Assembly: GCF_000482245.1 (NCBI RefSeq)
Contig: NZ_AWNH01000090.1
Location: forward strand, 1 to 51,838
Origin: Leptolyngbya sp. Heron Island J
Lineage (GTDB): Bacteria; Cyanobacteriota; Cyanobacteriia; Phormidesmidales; Phormidesmidaceae
Reading direction: 5' to 3'
DNA length: 51,838 bases
Part shown: in pieces, positions 1,586-7,429 of the stretch
Position numbering within the stretch: position 1 is the stretch's first letter
Layout: every line of letters begins with the position of its first letter
The notes under the pieces: generated by a model
The model's input: only the letters and a program-made list of their open reading frames with translations
Database searches by the model: none
Told to the model about the DNA's origin: nothing
Position numbers and translations under genes: made by a program

Positions 1586-1685
1586 CATCTACAAACCCTT
1601 CTAGGGATTGAAATAAATATGTCTGAACTTAATGGCGTAAGCTCTTTCCCTATGAACATTCTGAAACCCCTCTCAGGGATTAAAC
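1586..1685 (+). CRISPR. Two decayed CRISPR repeat-like units (array remnant)
   Basis: Two 29-nt sequences at 1586-1614 and 1657-1685 align at about 22 of 30 columns. Both contain AAACCC, a short loop and AGGGATT, and end in forms close to the cyanobacterial repeat tail ATTGAAAC (ATTGAAAT and ATTAAAC). Their 71-bp spacing fits a 35-37 nt repeat plus a spacer of similar size. The second unit runs into the cas3 stop codon (1685-1687). No further unit is recognisable at the same period on either side, and the 5' parts of the repeats have diverged. I read this as the decayed end of an array transcribed toward cas3. With only two degenerate units, coincidence is possible. Confidence 0.5.
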
Positions 1686-3859
1686 TACACAACCCATATC
1701 TCGCCTCTGTCGTGTTTGAATCGGTACGCCAGGGTATCTAGCAGTAACGCCGATTGCCCAAACGCAACCGAATAAGGTGCATTAGCATCGTGAATGCTGC
1801 CAGCATCACTAATGGGATAAATCTGAAAATGCATCGGTAGCCGTAAGCGTAGGCGGACTTCCCGCATAGGCTTACGCAACACGTAGCAAACCAAGGCCTG
1901 CTGCTTAAGTCTTCGGTTGATGCTACCTACCCATGGATTATCCGGCTGCCAAACCTGCAAACCTTGCAGAACCTGAACTTGCCAAGCATCGGCAATAGGC
2001 TGAAGGTCACCAGGATAGGTAAACGTCCAATTCAACCGTTCCTCGCGGTAGCTGCATAGCTTCATAAACCCCAGACAATGGCGAAAACGGCCTTTTGGAA
2101 TAGGTTGTCCCGTACGTTCAGCACTTTCCTTGAGCGTGTCCAGAAAAGCCGACTTGCTCCTCATTTCAATGTCTAGATTGCTCAGTACACCAGGCAAGTC
2201 ATAGGTCTTAAACCGATCCGGTTCGTACGCCTCGGTTAAGTCATACAATCCGCACTGTAATGGACTAGAACCTCGAAAGCTGCGGGCATCTTCTGCAATG
2301 GGGTTACCGCTCTTTTGGCCAGATAGTGTTTGCCAGTCTTTCGCCCAGCCACTTAGCTGCCCTGCAACTCGCTTGAGTTGAATATCAAAGGTTTTTTCGC
2401 AACTGGCGCAGAACTTTTGGAGAGAGCCCGCATACTGCTGCTGAATGTTGGTGTTCTTCAACTGTTGAGCAAGGTAAAAGGACTGAACCCCACCCCAGCG
2501 TTTGTAGTAGCCTTCAAAGTTGTTGATTTTTCGATACTTTTCACGGATTAGGTTTTGGAAGCGGATGCGATCGCACGTCCCCCCATCTGCCAACACAGCA
2601 TCTTCCCCAGCAAACAACCGCTCCACAAAAAAGTTGGGCACCAACGCATAGGCGCGAAACCCATCAAACCTAATGTCCTGACCGTCTTTTGTGTAGCCAT
2701 CATGGCGGCCTAAACGCCCCAATCGCTGAATAAAATTTCCCGCATCTGAAGACTCAAAGACAAGGAAATTAATCTTGAAGTCCACACCGACATCGATGGT
2801 GCTGGTGCCAATCACCAAGTCAGCCGCCAGAGATTCTGTTTTCTCCTGCTGACCTGATAACCCTGTATTCTCTCGAACTGTCAAACCATGGTCAACAAAA
2901 AGCTCTCTGAAAATTGGTGTTAGTCGTTTTACAGCAGCGATCGAGTTAAGGATAATGGCTCCCTTACTGCCAGGATGCTTTAGAAACTGTTCAAGAATAG
3001 ACCCTTGATTTTCCCTCAGCCAAGTTTCAGATGCCTTAGATGTTGGTTCCATGGCCACAAATGCCAAATCAATTGGTCGTGCTACTTGCCGCCAATGCTT
3101 AGCTTTCAGTTCAGTTTCTTCAGCTTGTGTATCTGGAAATTTGTATTTGTCGGCATCAGAGGGATTGATAACACAGTATTTAAAGCCAGCCGCATCTAGC
3201 CGTTTCAAAAGTGCTTCGTTGGGTGTGGCTGACAGAAACAAAAACTTCTTATGGCGGTTTGTTACTCGGATCAACAACATTGTGTTGAGTACGCTGGCCA
3301 CTTGGGGAGCTGCAAAAACATGGAATTCGTCGAAGATAAACAGGTCAAAATCCTTATCAATCCGATTCCAAAGTTTATCGGGAGTTTCTTTGTCAGTTAA
3401 GTAGGCTCCACGATGCAAATAGTGGAAGATATCAGGGTTAGTAATGAGCACTTCCGATTGACCAGAGCGGGTTGCGATCGCACTACCTTTTCTTAATCCT
3501 TCATTCTCCGCATAAATCTCTAACTCTGGACCACTCAGACGATTGACTCTTGGCTCATTGGATGGCTGAAATTTAGCAATATAGTCCTGGATTTGAATCT
3601 CTTGATCTCTGGCCAGAGCATTAGTTGGGTACAGGCCAATAGCGCAGCTGTTTCCTTGCAAGATATCTAAATAGGCTGCAAGACTTTTCCCATCCCCAGT
3701 CATTGCCGTGTTGAACACTACATCTACATCAGAACTGTGTAATGCGTTCAAGGTTTCAACCTGATGCCATGCCAACCTCCAAGTCGCAGGCAAGTTCATA
3801 CTGGCTGGAATATTCTCAGCTGGGCAAGAATAAACGGGTTTAAGCTGAATCGAAGCCAT
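1685..3859 (-). CDS. cas3: CRISPR-associated helicase Cas3, subtype I-D (cyano-type)
   Basis: This 724-residue superfamily 2 helicase is of the cyanobacterial Cas3 type, which in subtype I-D lacks its own HD nuclease domain (carried by Cas10d) and unwinds target DNA during interference. Visible motifs are a Walker A variant TGDGKS (residues 54-59), the DEFH form of the DEAD box (177-180), SAT (210-212) and an arginine-finger motif QRLGRLGRHDG near 380. No HD domain is seen. Length is normal for the family and the frame is open. The expected next genes (cas10d, csc2, csc1, cas6, cas4, cas1, cas2) are missing; the gene ends against CRISPR-like remnants and an insertion sequence. It is divergent from a WYL regulator, as in known I-D loci. 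It may be an orphan helicase, or the rest of the operon may lie beyond the insertion sequence. Confidence 0.85.
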   Translation of the reverse strand: MASIQLKPVYSCPAENIPASMNLPATWRLAWHQVETLNALHSSDVDVVFNTAMTGDGKSLAAYLDILQGNSCAIGLYPTNALARDQEIQIQDYIAKFQPSNEPRVNRLSGPELEIYAENEGLRKGSAIATRSGQSEVLITNPDIFHYLHRGAYLTDKETPDKLWNRIDKDFDLFIFDEFHVFAAPQVASVLNTMLLIRVTNRHKKFLFLSATPNEALLKRLDAAGFKYCVINPSDADKYKFPDTQAEETELKAKHWRQVARPIDLAFVAMEPTSKASETWLRENQGSILEQFLKHPGSKGAIILNSIAAVKRLTPIFRELFVDHGLTVRENTGLSGQQEKTESLAADLVIGTSTIDVGVDFKINFLVFESSDAGNFIQRLGRLGRHDGYTKDGQDIRFDGFRAYALVPNFFVERLFAGEDAVLADGGTCDRIRFQNLIREKYRKINNFEGYYKRWGGVQSFYLAQQLKNTNIQQQYAGSLQKFCASCEKTFDIQLKRVAGQLSGWAKDWQTLSGQKSGNPIAEDARSFRGSSPLQCGLYDLTEAYEPDRFKTYDLPGVLSNLDIEMRSKSAFLDTLKESAERTGQPIPKGRFRHCLGFMKLCSYREERLNWTFTYPGDLQPIADAWQVQVLQGLQVWQPDNPWVGSINRRLKQQALVCYVLRKPMREVRLRLRLPMHFQIYPISDAGSIHDANAPYSVAFGQSALLLDTLAYRFKHDRGEIWVV

Positions 3860-3907
3860 AGCTAGGTGCTGACATTTCTTCGTAAACTGCTATCAAGCAC
3901 AATGCTT

Positions 3908-3995
3908 TAGTGCACGTGCTTTGTTGACTGGACCTATAATGGCAAGGAAAATAGCATTATTCAATAGCTGAAGCTGCAAAGTGCACTTGCACTTT
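3908..3995. promoter_or_regulatory. Duplicated operator-like motif in the cas3/WYL divergent spacer
   Basis: Two related sites share AGTGCAC(T/G)TGC. The downstream one (3978-3995) is a perfect inverted repeat, AAAGTGCA-CT-TGCACTTT. The upstream one (about 3908-3922) contains the palindromes GTGCAC and GCACGTGC. A TATAAT at 3935-3940 faces the WYL gene, with the upstream site over its -35 position and the downstream site between the -10 and the start codon. This layout suits autoregulation by the WYL protein and possible co-repression of cas3. The sites are seen; the regulator assignment is inferred from position. Confidence 0.55.
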
Positions 3996-4008
3996 TACAG
4001 AAGTCACC

Positions 4009-4863
4009 ATGGCACGCAAACGTCCCTCCATTACCCTAACTATTTCTGACTATGAAAAAGCCCAGCTAGAGGCTCTAGCAATGGAGTTTGGCCAAACCTG
4101 GGGGGACAAGCCAAACGTGTCAAAACTTATCAAAGCAATTGCTAATGGCAAGCTGCTAATAGCCAATAACCATGACTGGAGTTGCGATCGCACCACCATC
4201 CTCAACCAAGCCCTCAATCTTCTCAAAGATGGTGGGTATTTCAACGAAGCGATGGAACTGGCCCACCTATTACTAGAGCGCAGCGAATTAAATCACCCTC
4301 TAAGACAAGAGATCCAAGCTTGGGTAGACCATCCAGGGCCACCCTGGCGTATTCATATCGATAGCTTCATTCGCCAAGTACGTCCTTTTCGTCTCACCTA
4401 TCAAGACGCCGCCGACCGAATTTGGAGCTTTACCGTACGTCATGCCATCATTCAGCGTCATGAAGATCGTCAATATCTCGATTGTTGGTGCGATGAAACC
4501 CAAGGCAACCAAGATATTGAAGCGCTACATCACAACTGGTGTCTCCGACTAGATCGCATTCCTAGCGAAGCCGTCATTACCCCAGTCGAAGGACAGTGGA
4601 AACCCCAGCTTGACCATATTGAGGTTGAATTTCATTTAGTTAACCGATTAGCTGTTGCCTATCGATCAAAAAAAGGAGCCGATTTAACAAACGAATGGCT
4701 ACCTGAACAACAAATTCGACGAGTCACCCGGCAGATTCAAAACACCTTCTGGTTCTTTCGAGAAATCCGTCGTTACGATCCAGACTGCATCATTATCAGC
4801 CCACGAGATGTTCGTACCCGATTTGTTCAAAGTTTGACTCTGGCGCTCCAACACTACCAATAA
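4009..4863 (+). CDS. WYL-domain transcriptional regulator of the I-D CRISPR locus
   Basis: This 284-residue protein is like the regulators found divergent to cas3 in cyanobacterial subtype I-D loci, such as Sll7009 of Synechocystis pSYSA, proposed as a repressor there. The N-terminal 45 residues (MARKRPSITLTISDYEKAQL) resemble a ribbon-helix-helix or short DNA-binding region. A helical linker follows, and the C-terminal half (from about residue 115) has the beta-rich WYL-like part ending in RFVQSLTLALQHY. The ATG at 4009 follows two AGTGCAC-type operator sites. WYL domains sense ligands, often nucleotides or nucleic acid, but none can be named here. Its survival next to an apparently eroded cas operon suggests either recent decay or a role of its own. 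Confidence 0.7.
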   Translation: MARKRPSITLTISDYEKAQLEALAMEFGQTWGDKPNVSKLIKAIANGKLLIANNHDWSCDRTTILNQALNLLKDGGYFNEAMELAHLLLERSELNHPLRQEIQAWVDHPGPPWRIHIDSFIRQVRPFRLTYQDAADRIWSFTVRHAIIQRHEDRQYLDCWCDETQGNQDIEALHHNWCLRLDRIPSEAVITPVEGQWKPQLDHIEVEFHLVNRLAVAYRSKKGADLTNEWLPEQQIRRVTRQIQNTFWFFREIRRYDPDCIIISPRDVRTRFVQSLTLALQHYQ

Positions 4864-4921
4864 ATGAAAGCTGGTGCTGGCACATTTAAAGTAATAGCTC
4901 AGCTCTGTCCTGGAAGCCTGT

Positions 4922-5259
4922 CAAATTTCTTTAAAAGCACAACACCCAGCCATCTTCCTGAGGAACATCCTTCCCAATAGTTCGCTAGGATTTGGAGATG
5001 CGTCTTATGTTGTTAGCAATTGCCCTTTGAACATCTTGCTTAACAACCTCAGCATGGCTCCCAATATGTCAGCGATAGGATGTATCAGCTTGACTCGCTG
5101 GGTGTTGGGTTAAACGAGACAGAATATGCAACAGCTTTACCTCTTTGTTGTTTTCTCTAGCTGTTTAGTCTGCCAGGGAAGCGATGCTTTTTCACTTCAA
5201 TGTCAATATAACCTATCTCAACTCCTATGAGTGGTTTGTAGACTAAAGTTAACAATCTC
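4922..5259. ncRNA. Candidate structured RNA unit, copy 1
   Basis: One long nested hairpin can be drawn. The pairs are CAACACCCAGC 4940-4950 with 5097-5107; CATCC 4966-4970 with GGATG 5078-5082; TCGCT 4982-4986 with AGCGA 5071-5075; GGAGATGC 4994-5001 with GCAT..CTCC 5052-5061; and GTTGTTAG 5009-5016 with TTAACAAC 5040-5047. A small TTCC-TGA-GGAA hairpin sits at 4955-4965. Downstream are a second stem (AGAC..AACAGC with GCTGTT..GTCT, 5117-5171) and a third (GAAGCGA with TCACTTC). Strand, promoter and function are unknown. A palindromic DNA element is the alternative. Confidence 0.45.
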
Positions 5260-5269
5260 AAGGACTAGG

Positions 5270-5605
5270 CAAATCTCTTTAAAAACACAACACCCAATGG
5301 TCTTCCTGAGGAACATCCTTTCCAATCATTCGCTAGGACTTGGAGATGCATCTTGTTGTTGATAATTGCCCTTTGAGCACCCGATTCAACAACTTCAGCA
5401 TGGCTCCCAACTTAACAGCGATAGGATGTATCAGCTTGACCCATTGGGTGTTGGGTTGAACGAGACAGAATATGCAACAGCTTTACCTCTTTGTTGTTTT
5501 CTCTAGCTGTTTAGTCTGCCAGGGAAGCGATGTTTTTTCGCTTCAATGTCAATATAGATCATCACGCCAACAGTTTGTACTTTGTAGACCAAAGTTAACA
5601 ATCTC
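5270..5605. ncRNA. Candidate structured RNA unit, copy 2
   Basis: The fold is the same as in copy 1. The outer stem is 13 bp, CAACACCCAATGG 5288-5300 with 5441-5453, then CATCC 5314-5318/GGATG 5424-5428, TCGCT 5330-5334/AGCGA 5417-5421, GGAGATGC 5342-5349/GCAT..CTCC 5398-5407 and GTTGTTGA 5355-5362/TCAACAAC 5386-5393. Against copy 1, the outer stem has G-C to A-T and C-G to T-A, and the inner stem has A-T to G-C, all compensatory. The third hairpin here is perfect (GAAGCGA/TCGCTTC). I do not recognise the family. Confidence 0.45.
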
Positions 5606-5875
5606 TGAGAGCAGTTGCTTTTAGGCCAAAAGCCTTTAAGAGAGATAACAGGCAATACCTGAGAAGACTTTTTGGCCGTCTGTCCCCATGGTAATCAGCC
5701 GTGGTTTAAGACAGCTATGATTCAGATATAAGAGGCTTTATTTAAATCGTATAATCTTTGAGAACTTTGATGAAGTAGTTGAATAATTAGACATCTTTTG
5801 TGAATAGACACTCTACTTTAATTGCTCTTTTCTCTATTTCTGCTACTTTGACTATCGATGGCAAAAGGAGAATCT

Positions 5876-7429
5876 ATGGGCGGAGTCGTCGCGGCTGGCC
5901 ATGATGAGACAGCAGCAGCAGCAGTCGAGATCCTCAATCAGGGAGGCAATGCTTTTGATGCGGCGGTGGCGGGGGTGCTGGCGTCCTGTGTCGCGGAGTC
6001 GGTGCTGACCTCTCTAGGGGGGGGTGGTTTTTTGCTAGCGCATACCGACACTGGTGAGCATGTACTGTTTGATTTTTTTACCCAAACACCAGTCTGTAAG
6101 GAATTGCAGCATCCACTCGACTTTTATCCCATCAATGCTGACTTTGGCGATACGGTACAGGAGTTTCACATTGGTCTGGGATCAATGGCGGTGCCGGGGG
6201 TGCTCAAGGGTTTAGTGCATGTGCATCAGCGCTTGGGCCAATTGCCGTTGGAGCGGGTTGTGGCCCCGGCCGTACAGCTGGCGCGTCAGGGCGTTGTCGT
6301 CAATGATTTTTCGGCCTATGTGTATGGATTGCTCAAACCAATTTTGTTGGCGACGGCGGGTGCCCGATCTATCTATGCGCCGCAGGGGCGTTTGTTGCAG
6401 GCGGGAGACCGCTTATACATGCCTGCCTTCGCTGATGCTCTAGAGCATTTGGTACAGGGGGGTGTGGAGGCATTTTGGCAGACTATGGCGGCGCAGCTGA
6501 CCCAGACGCAGGGGGGCTATCTGACGGCAGCGGATTTTGCTAACTATCAGGTGATTGAACGTCAGCCGCTATGTCTCGATTACCATGGCACCCAGCTGCT
6601 AACCAATCCACCGCCCAGTGCCGGGGGTGGATTGATTGCCTGTTCATTAGCGCTATTGGCGGACTGTGAGCTGGCGAGCCATGGCAGTCCTGACCATCTG
6701 CTGGCCCTGAGTCAGGTGATGCGGTTTACCAATGTGGCTCGCCGTGATGGCTATGATGCTCGCATTCAGACACCCCATGTGGCTGAGGAGCTTTTGTCCA
6801 TGGGGCATTTAGGACAATATCGGGGCGAATTGATGGCTGCGATCGCAGCTCTAAAATCATCTAAACACCTGACCAATAAGCTCGGTAGCACCACCCACCT
6901 CAGTGTCATTGATACCAACGGCAACGCCGCCAGTGTTACCACCTCCAACGGCGAAGGGTCATCCTACATAATTCCTAACACCGGCATCATGGTCAATAAC
7001 ATGCTGGGTGAAGAAGACCTCAACCCCAATGGCTTTCACCAGTGGACTCCCAACCAGCGCATATCCTCAATGATGGCCCCTACCATAGTGCTACGACAGG
7101 GACGGCCTTATTTGGTGTTGGGCTCCGGCGGTTCTAACCGTATCCGCACCGCCATTCTGCAAGTCATATCCAACCTGGTGGATTTTGACATGCCCCTAGA
7201 AGCAGCCGTGGCTGCACCTCGTATTCATTGGGAAAATGACGTATTCCACCTGGAACCTGGCTTTGACCAGGCAAGCCTCACCCCCATTATCAGCACAGCC
7301 AAGCCAGTTTGGTGGCAGGCCCAGAATATGTTTTTTGGCGGGATACATGCTGTGGGACTAGATGACAACGGCTATCTACACGGGGCTGGAGACAGTCGCC
7401 GCAAGGGAGCCGTAGCTGTGGCACAATAG
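5876..7429 (+). CDS. ggt: Gamma-glutamyltransferase
   Basis: This 517-residue N-terminal-nucleophile hydrolase cleaves gamma-glutamyl bonds, as in glutathione, and transfers the group to water or amino acids. The proenzyme self-cleaves before a catalytic threonine; the candidate is in GSTTHLSVID near residue 339. The oxyanion and substrate region SGGSNRIRTA and the N-terminal NAFDAAVAG motif also fit. An upstream ATG at 5858 is in frame, but AAGGAG at 5865-5870 is ideally placed for ATG 5876, so I use the latter. No signal peptide is seen, unlike E. coli periplasmic GGT, which suggests a cytoplasmic enzyme of the GgtA/YwrD type. It stands alone downstream of the tandem hairpin region. Confidence 0.9.
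   Translation: MGGVVAAGHDETAAAAVEILNQGGNAFDAAVAGVLASCVAESVLTSLGGGGFLLAHTDTGEHVLFDFFTQTPVCKELQHPLDFYPINADFGDTVQEFHIGLGSMAVPGVLKGLVHVHQRLGQLPLERVVAPAVQLARQGVVVNDFSAYVYGLLKPILLATAGARSIYAPQGRLLQAGDRLYMPAFADALEHLVQGGVEAFWQTMAAQLTQTQGGYLTAADFANYQVIERQPLCLDYHGTQLLTNPPPSAGGGLIACSLALLADCELASHGSPDHLLALSQVMRFTNVARRDGYDARIQTPHVAEELLSMGHLGQYRGELMAAIAALKSSKHLTNKLGSTTHLSVIDTNGNAASVTTSNGEGSSYIIPNTGIMVNNMLGEEDLNPNGFHQWTPNQRISSMMAPTIVLRQGRPYLVLGSGGSNRIRTAILQVISNLVDFDMPLEAAVAAPRIHWENDVFHLEPGFDQASLTPIISTAKPVWWQAQNMFFGGIHAVGLDDNGYLHGAGDSRRKGAVAVAQ

Follow-up and report, generated by a model that had tools for sequence, protein, structure and literature searches.

Tandem copies of a putative gene for a structured, non-coding RNA in Leptolyngbya sp. 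Heron Island J, with relatives in many other cyanobacteria

The window, by which we mean the whole 51,838-nt stretch of the Leptolyngbya sp. Heron Island J genome that was analyzed, carries two direct tandem copies of an element at 4922-5259 and 5270-5605, which are 85% identical over the whole copy. The repeat can be divided into two blocks, 4922-5006 paired with 5270-5354 (87% identity, spacing 348) and 5008-5259 paired with 5354-5605 (85%, spacing 346). A gene for gamma-glutamyltransferase (TIGR00066) adjoins the element, and miaB (TIGR01574) is near it. Between an ISKra4 transposase (9-1397) and the element lie genes for a type I-D helicase of the Cas3d type and for a divergent WYL-domain protein (1685-4863); in the four same-genus loci compared, that side is occupied by other genes, an indication that this genome has undergone a rearrangement or insertion.

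The first-pass annotation had described the interval 4922-5605 as two direct tandem copies sharing one fold, and both parts of this description are borne out. The interval was placed correctly, since it still contains the end of the upstream copy's promoter box (5599), and a nested hairpin of ~168 nt with smaller hairpins is predicted for both copies, on either strand. The paired differences cited between the copies are also correct: 4949/5098 G-C against 5297/5444 A-T, 4950/5097 C-G against 5298/5443 T-A, and 5015/5041 A-T against 5361/5387 G-C. The predicted folding energies are −94.1 and −100.9 kcal/mol for the minus strand versus −89.0 and −92.2 kcal/mol for the plus strand, so that the minus strand would fold slightly more stably. 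By BLAST and by a covariance model built from 94 matches (R2), the element occupies a single place in its own genome, with both tandem copies there. The features of the two copies are as follows, all on the minus strand.

5270-5605, minus: upstream copy (first in the RNA sense), from promoter box to tail; R2 match 5455-5559, 85.4 bits, E 2.9e-17, this sequence being among the model's own
4922-5259, minus: downstream copy; R2 match 5109-5213, 80.9 bits, E 3.2e-16, this sequence likewise being among the model's own
5583-5599, minus: conserved promoter box GTTAACTTTGGTCTACA, upstream copy (from the sequence; box in 83 of 93 loci)
5237-5253, minus: conserved promoter box GTTAACTTTAGTCTACA, downstream copy (from the sequence; same locus survey)
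5551-5556, minus: −10 element TATATT, upstream copy (TAnnnT in 91 of 93 loci)
5205-5210, minus: −10 element TATATT, downstream copy (same TAnnnT survey)
5524-5544, minus: hairpin P1, upstream copy (alignment and pair statistics)
5178-5198, minus: hairpin P1, downstream copy (alignment and pair statistics)
5464-5520, minus: domain P2, upstream copy (alignment and pair statistics)
5118-5174, minus: domain P2, downstream copy (alignment and pair statistics)
5482-5491, minus: Shine-Dalgarno-like loop AAGAGGUAAA, upstream copy (loop scoring)
5136-5145, minus: Shine-Dalgarno-like loop AAGAGGUAAA, downstream copy (loop scoring)
5288-5453, minus: long nested hairpin P3, upstream copy (P3a, P3b, internal loop, P3c, P3d)
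4940-5107, minus: long nested hairpin P3, downstream copy (same parts)
5277-5287, minus: U-rich tail, upstream copy, after P3

Read along the minus strand, the order is thus promoter box, −10 box, P1, P2 (enclosing P2b and the Shine-Dalgarno-like loop), P3, and U-rich tail. The RNA is predicted to be about 260 nt long and would start at about 5545-5550 in the upstream copy; in genus g35, the RNAs span 257-268 nt when counted from where P1 begins to where the P3a stem ends. P1 has the stem GAAGC/GCUUC. The P2 helix GGCAGA/UCUGUC is near-invariant, with its G-U pair kept in 48 of 49 sequences, and inside P2 lie the P2b helix AACAGC/GCUGUU and the loop AAGAGGUAAA, which is replaced by AAGGAG in distant members. 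P3 is built from a basal stem of 13 pairs (P3a, CAACACCCAA/TTGGGTGTTG), P3b, a large variable internal loop around which P3b and P3c covary, P3c itself, and P3d. Of the 94 core matches, 87 are followed by a P3 basal stem with a score of 25 or more; among shuffles the count is 6 of 94, and among neighbouring stretches it is 19 of 176. One of the seven core matches lacking such a stem lies at an assembly gap. The U tail TGTTTTTAAAG is short and not a textbook terminator, and a terminator scan of one relative gave none on the RNA strand.

Conservation of this structure was scored over 50 pairs in 49 full-length sequences. Standard pairs make up 93.1% of the 2404 pair cells, as against 39-46% when the partners are slid, a control that favours the structure, since the alignment used for scoring is also the one from which the structure was built. 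The weakest helix is the innermost, P3d, with 71.9% of cells paired. Two-sided changes were found in 29 of the 50 pairs (shuffled mean 13.7, sd 2.0), and covariation scored 0.200, as against 0.125 after shuffling; each value was reached in 0 of 500 shuffles, where shuffling preserves the column make-up but not kinship. A P3 stem had been scored in 87 sequences, of which 49 went into alignment A3 and 54 into A4; the more divergent and insertion-bearing ones, which MAFFT aligns poorly, were left out. The claim of selection on an RNA structure, made at first from the two copies, is strongly supported by this sequence comparison: across 49 homologues the same fold persists, with covariation and far beyond chance, and a lack of significant covariation in a wider alignment, named in advance as evidence against the claim, was not what we found.

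The same alignment bears on the strand. G-U cells outnumber A-C cells by 139 to 19 when the poorly paired P3d (helix 8) is omitted, and by 164 to 37 when it is included, and we therefore assign the RNA to the minus strand. Wobble pairs had been read at first as mixed evidence on strand; they do carry a strand signal, and the apparent mixture resolves to minus. The element contains no ORF of at least 60 aa. No conserved sense frame runs through the 49 sequences, whose longest ORFs span 9-79 aa, with no column covered in more than 23 of the 49. A reading of the element as a gene for a small protein was rejected for lack of a conserved frame.

A second conserved arrangement lies upstream of P1. 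An activator-like promoter box with the consensus GTAAAGTTTAGTTGCA precedes P1 in 83 of 93 loci, compared with 8.4 expected from shuffles, and in 80 of these 83 the distance from box to P1 is 55-59 nt. In 91 of 93 loci, P1 is closely preceded by a −10 box of the form TAnnnT, where shuffles give 48.7. Both copies in the window keep a promoter box of their own. When the box pattern was searched in 8 genomes with one mismatch allowed, it matched 14 places, 6 of them at the RNA (five exact and one more); in G370 and G382, the box that belongs to the RNA escaped the pattern. The 8 places away from the RNA are at chance level, because a reversed control pattern gave 9; none of them is an exact match to GTAAAGTTTAGTTGCA. 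In the window, GTAAAGTTTAGTTGCA at 5237-5253 and 5583-5599 resembles the site of a putative regulator. We regard the conserved promoter layout as indirect support for transcription of the RNA.

The element was originally assigned to no recognizable family, and a match to a known one had been named as grounds for dismissing it. The original assessment agrees with Rfam 15, whose 4227 models gave no match at the gathering threshold in the 51,838 bases of the window. A relaxed search of 4800-5900 returned four hits below gathering (E 0.52-2); the two that overlie the element are both lncRNA fragments and fall far under their cut-offs.

To map the spread of the RNA, we searched other cyanobacterial genomes. 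BLASTN found the element in 11 of 39 genomes, its own included, and in some of these it is also tandem. R1, a covariance model built from 12 sequences and covering the first ~109 nt of the RNA, matched 86 genomes in a set of 386 sampled evenly across the phylum, and 13 of 13 genomes of genus g35. With R2, a covariance-model search of the kind first proposed as a check, the RNA was found in 90 of the 386 genomes and in 52 of 143 genera, with two to four matches in 21 of the 90. The RNA is present in many genomes of family f22 and reaches well beyond it. A tree of eight element copies from the genus of the window was mostly unresolved, with a single starred fork joining G004_3p and G005_b_partial. 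In G005, the second tandem copy stops at a run of N directly behind P2 (L141 6026-6130), and in G150 several rearranged or partial copies stand in a row, with an insert inside the P2 loop (L099 5058-6123).

Copies of the RNA also occur on plasmids. BLAST with a Nostoc-type copy matched three Nostoc plasmids over 60-94% of the query, with no listed gene under the match, and the two of these copies that were checked scored 89.5 and 82.4 bits with R2; the same search with the window copy gave no match. Two of the plasmid copies are those in L143 (6003-6113) and L144 (6003-6111), on pANSO36A and UHCC 0302 unnamed5, the latter typed as conjugative. Such copies make occasional transfer, and thus horizontal spread, possible. 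In viral contigs, a search with one near-exact pattern, which would miss divergent copies, did not find the RNA.

The plasmid copies, together with the tandem arrangement in this and some other genomes, are what one might expect of a mobile element (a MITE, retroelement or intron fragment) that has been duplicated in tandem, but the remaining evidence makes this reading hardly credible. A MITE was rejected because the element forms one tandem locus in its genome and is not dispersed. Terminal inverted repeats as such were not found, in line with the first description; the longest inverted repeat is the internal P3a stem, and the others are 12-13-nt pairs. The gamma-glutamyltransferase gene adjoins the element not only in the window but in all four same-genus loci (G002, G004, G005 and G006) and in G011, which belongs to another genus of the same family, and miaB is near it in the window, in G011, and in three of the four same-genus loci (all but G005). 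A mobile element would also have to be reconciled with a promoter and fold conserved over many families and with the lack of an Rfam match. The locus set searched for neighbours comprised 80 loci and the window, and at the 80 other loci no relatives of cas3d (TIGR03158), of the WYL gene or of the ISKra4 transposase were found within about 5.5 kb of the RNA; a defence-linked role was rejected on this synteny. The first-pass suggestion of a mobile or defence-linked RNA is thus not supported, given the single locus, the conserved neighbourhood, the lack of cas3 or WYL relatives near the RNA at the 80 other loci, and the lack of a viral match to the one pattern tried.

The neighbour that does recur is a gene for a protein of about 256 aa, which we call P0001 (start MSIIALRAWYLQDYEP; examples at L049:8014-8781, minus strand, and G000:C18:2449-3207). 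P0001 was matched in 88 of the 386 genomes. Searches of Pfam, NCBIfam, PADLOC and solved structures gave no match for it; of four relatives, one had two hits, neither of which reached the cut-offs of Pfam. By eye it appeared TIR-like, which no search supported. At E 0.001, 66 of the 386 genomes have both the RNA and P0001, 24 only the RNA, 22 only P0001, and 274 neither. In 38 of the 66, from several families and including G006 of the window's own genus, P0001 lies downstream of the RNA on the same strand.

This arrangement is consistent with a long cis-acting leader (a riboswitch or attenuator) for P0001, with the stand-alone copies as relics or secondary. Several observations are difficult to fit with such a role. 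RNA and P0001 are not adjacent in 28 of the 66 genomes (contig breaks may hide a few), among them that of the window, which has two copies of the RNA on C90 and P0001 on C18; the 24 and 22 genomes with only one of the two point the same way. Two genomes, G100 and G415, have an intact RNA (92.8 and 80.8 bits) next to an apparently broken P0001 with internal stops and split matches. The spacing between RNA and P0001 varies from roughly 6 to 1394 nt, and each tandem copy in the window keeps its own promoter box. Because of the non-adjacency, the one-sided occurrence and the broken P0001 in G100 and G415, we consider a pure leader role unlikely. A functional partnership of the RNA with P0001 is possible, as is a role in cis in those genomes where P0001 adjoins it on the same strand.

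The loop in P2 could be scored in 90 of 94 cases, the other four lacking the anchor; 67 of these loops are of the GAGGU type, 22 of the AAGGAG type, and 1 of another type. All 90 have at least 5 nt complementary to the anti-Shine-Dalgarno sequence at the 3' end of 16S rRNA, compared with 31% of shuffles, a result in keeping with a ribosome-directed RNA whose AAGAGGUAAA/AAGGAG loop pairs with this end and modulates translation. The energetic excess is weak, whether shuffles or other parts of the RNA serve as the comparison. The median energy of loop and anti-Shine-Dalgarno pairing is −7.2 kcal/mol, versus −5.6 for shuffled sequences and −5.9 for windows elsewhere in these RNAs. With a cut-off of −6 kcal/mol or lower we find 90 of 90 loops, 389 of 900 shuffled sequences and 461 of 937 other windows; at or below −8 kcal/mol, the counts are 30 of 90, 183 of 900 and 240 of 937. 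The sequences are related, so that 90 loops are not 90 events, and the loop could equally be a protein site. Because the energy advantage is small, we treat a ribosome role as a hypothesis only, and a rather improbable one.

The long hairpin invites comparison with 6S RNA (RF00013, SsaA), which in bacteria is stand-alone and structured and has interruptions in its long hairpin. The likeness would lie in these features; the RNA described here differs in its 5' domain, its size and its genome place, and has no Rfam match. A second 6S-like RNA, in which P3, opened by the internal loop that separates P3b from P3c, would mimic an open promoter and be bound by RNA polymerase, would fit the long hairpin and the covariation of P3b and P3c around a large variable internal loop. 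A separate 6S gene is nevertheless present elsewhere in the same genome (G000:C14:237287-237470), of 19 genomes searched, 18 have a match to the Rfam 6S model, which finds nothing within the window, and the RNA has an extra conserved 5' domain, which 6S is not known to have. We therefore judge this reading very unlikely.

Among the small RNAs reported from cyanobacteria, the closest candidate is 2462444f of Nostoc sp. PCC 7120, which is 258 nt long, verified by Northern blot and represented by many reads according to its report (PMC4734099). The same report counts homologues in 24 of 27 heterocystous genomes, with only heterocystous strains in its table, and describes induction by nitrogen limitation, in ntcA and hetR mutants too (PMC4734099). 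Its size fits (258 nt against about 260 nt), as does its spread, our RNA being common in family f22. In contrast, our RNA reaches well beyond f22, whereas 2462444f is listed there as heterocystous only (PMC4734099), and the prediction of 2462444f rests on a short terminator hairpin, which P3 is not. On size and spread, the two may be the same. Yfr1, Yfr2, NsrR1 and other named RNAs resemble ours in being conserved cyanobacterial non-coding RNAs (PMC4734099), while ours has no match to any Rfam family. Yfr1 is given there as 54-57 nt with a different conserved motif (PMC4734099), and NsrR1 as about 111 nt (2050703 to 2050814), reported as confined to heterocystous strains and close relatives (PMC6166021). 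The six selected RNAs of Nodularia spumigena listed in PMC3610870, 6S and tmRNA among them, sit at other places than the match of our RNA in G315. The literature that we read yielded no description of the RNA family, its structure or its breadth; members may already have been seen as anonymous transcripts.

Together, the sequence comparisons lead us to propose that each copy is probably the gene of a non-coding RNA of ~260 nt that stands alone, is highly structured, is transcribed from the minus strand and acts in trans. In the mechanism we envisage, RNA polymerase with a primary-type sigma factor and a dedicated regulator at the box would start the RNA just before P1, and transcription would stop at the P3a stem and the U-rich tail. 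The P2 helix with its G-U pair and the exposed AAGAGGUAAA/AAGGAG loop would form a binding face for a protein or for the 3' end of 16S rRNA, and P3 would serve as a rigid arm. The RNA would act in trans within a ribonucleoprotein, with the tandem copies raising its dose and the 256-aa P0001 protein as the first candidate for a partner or target. The fuller picture is one that we offer only tentatively, as possible but doubtful: a cyanobacterial class of ribonucleoprotein RNA with its own transcription factor and P0001 as its partner, in which the Shine-Dalgarno-like loop and the arm act on ribosomes or on RNA polymerase.

To our knowledge, few large structured bacterial RNAs are kept over much of a phylum, and the functions of 6S, OLE and the raiA motif took years to find. 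If this fuller picture is true, the cyanobacteria would have an RNA class over much of the phylum, of a standing comparable to that of 6S or OLE RNA. The RNA is sharply defined by its promoter box, P1, P2 and P3, it occurs in cultured Nostoc-type cyanobacteria, and it is amenable to deletion and to pull-down. The P0001 family and the promoter box at its fixed distance would provide two direct handles on its function.
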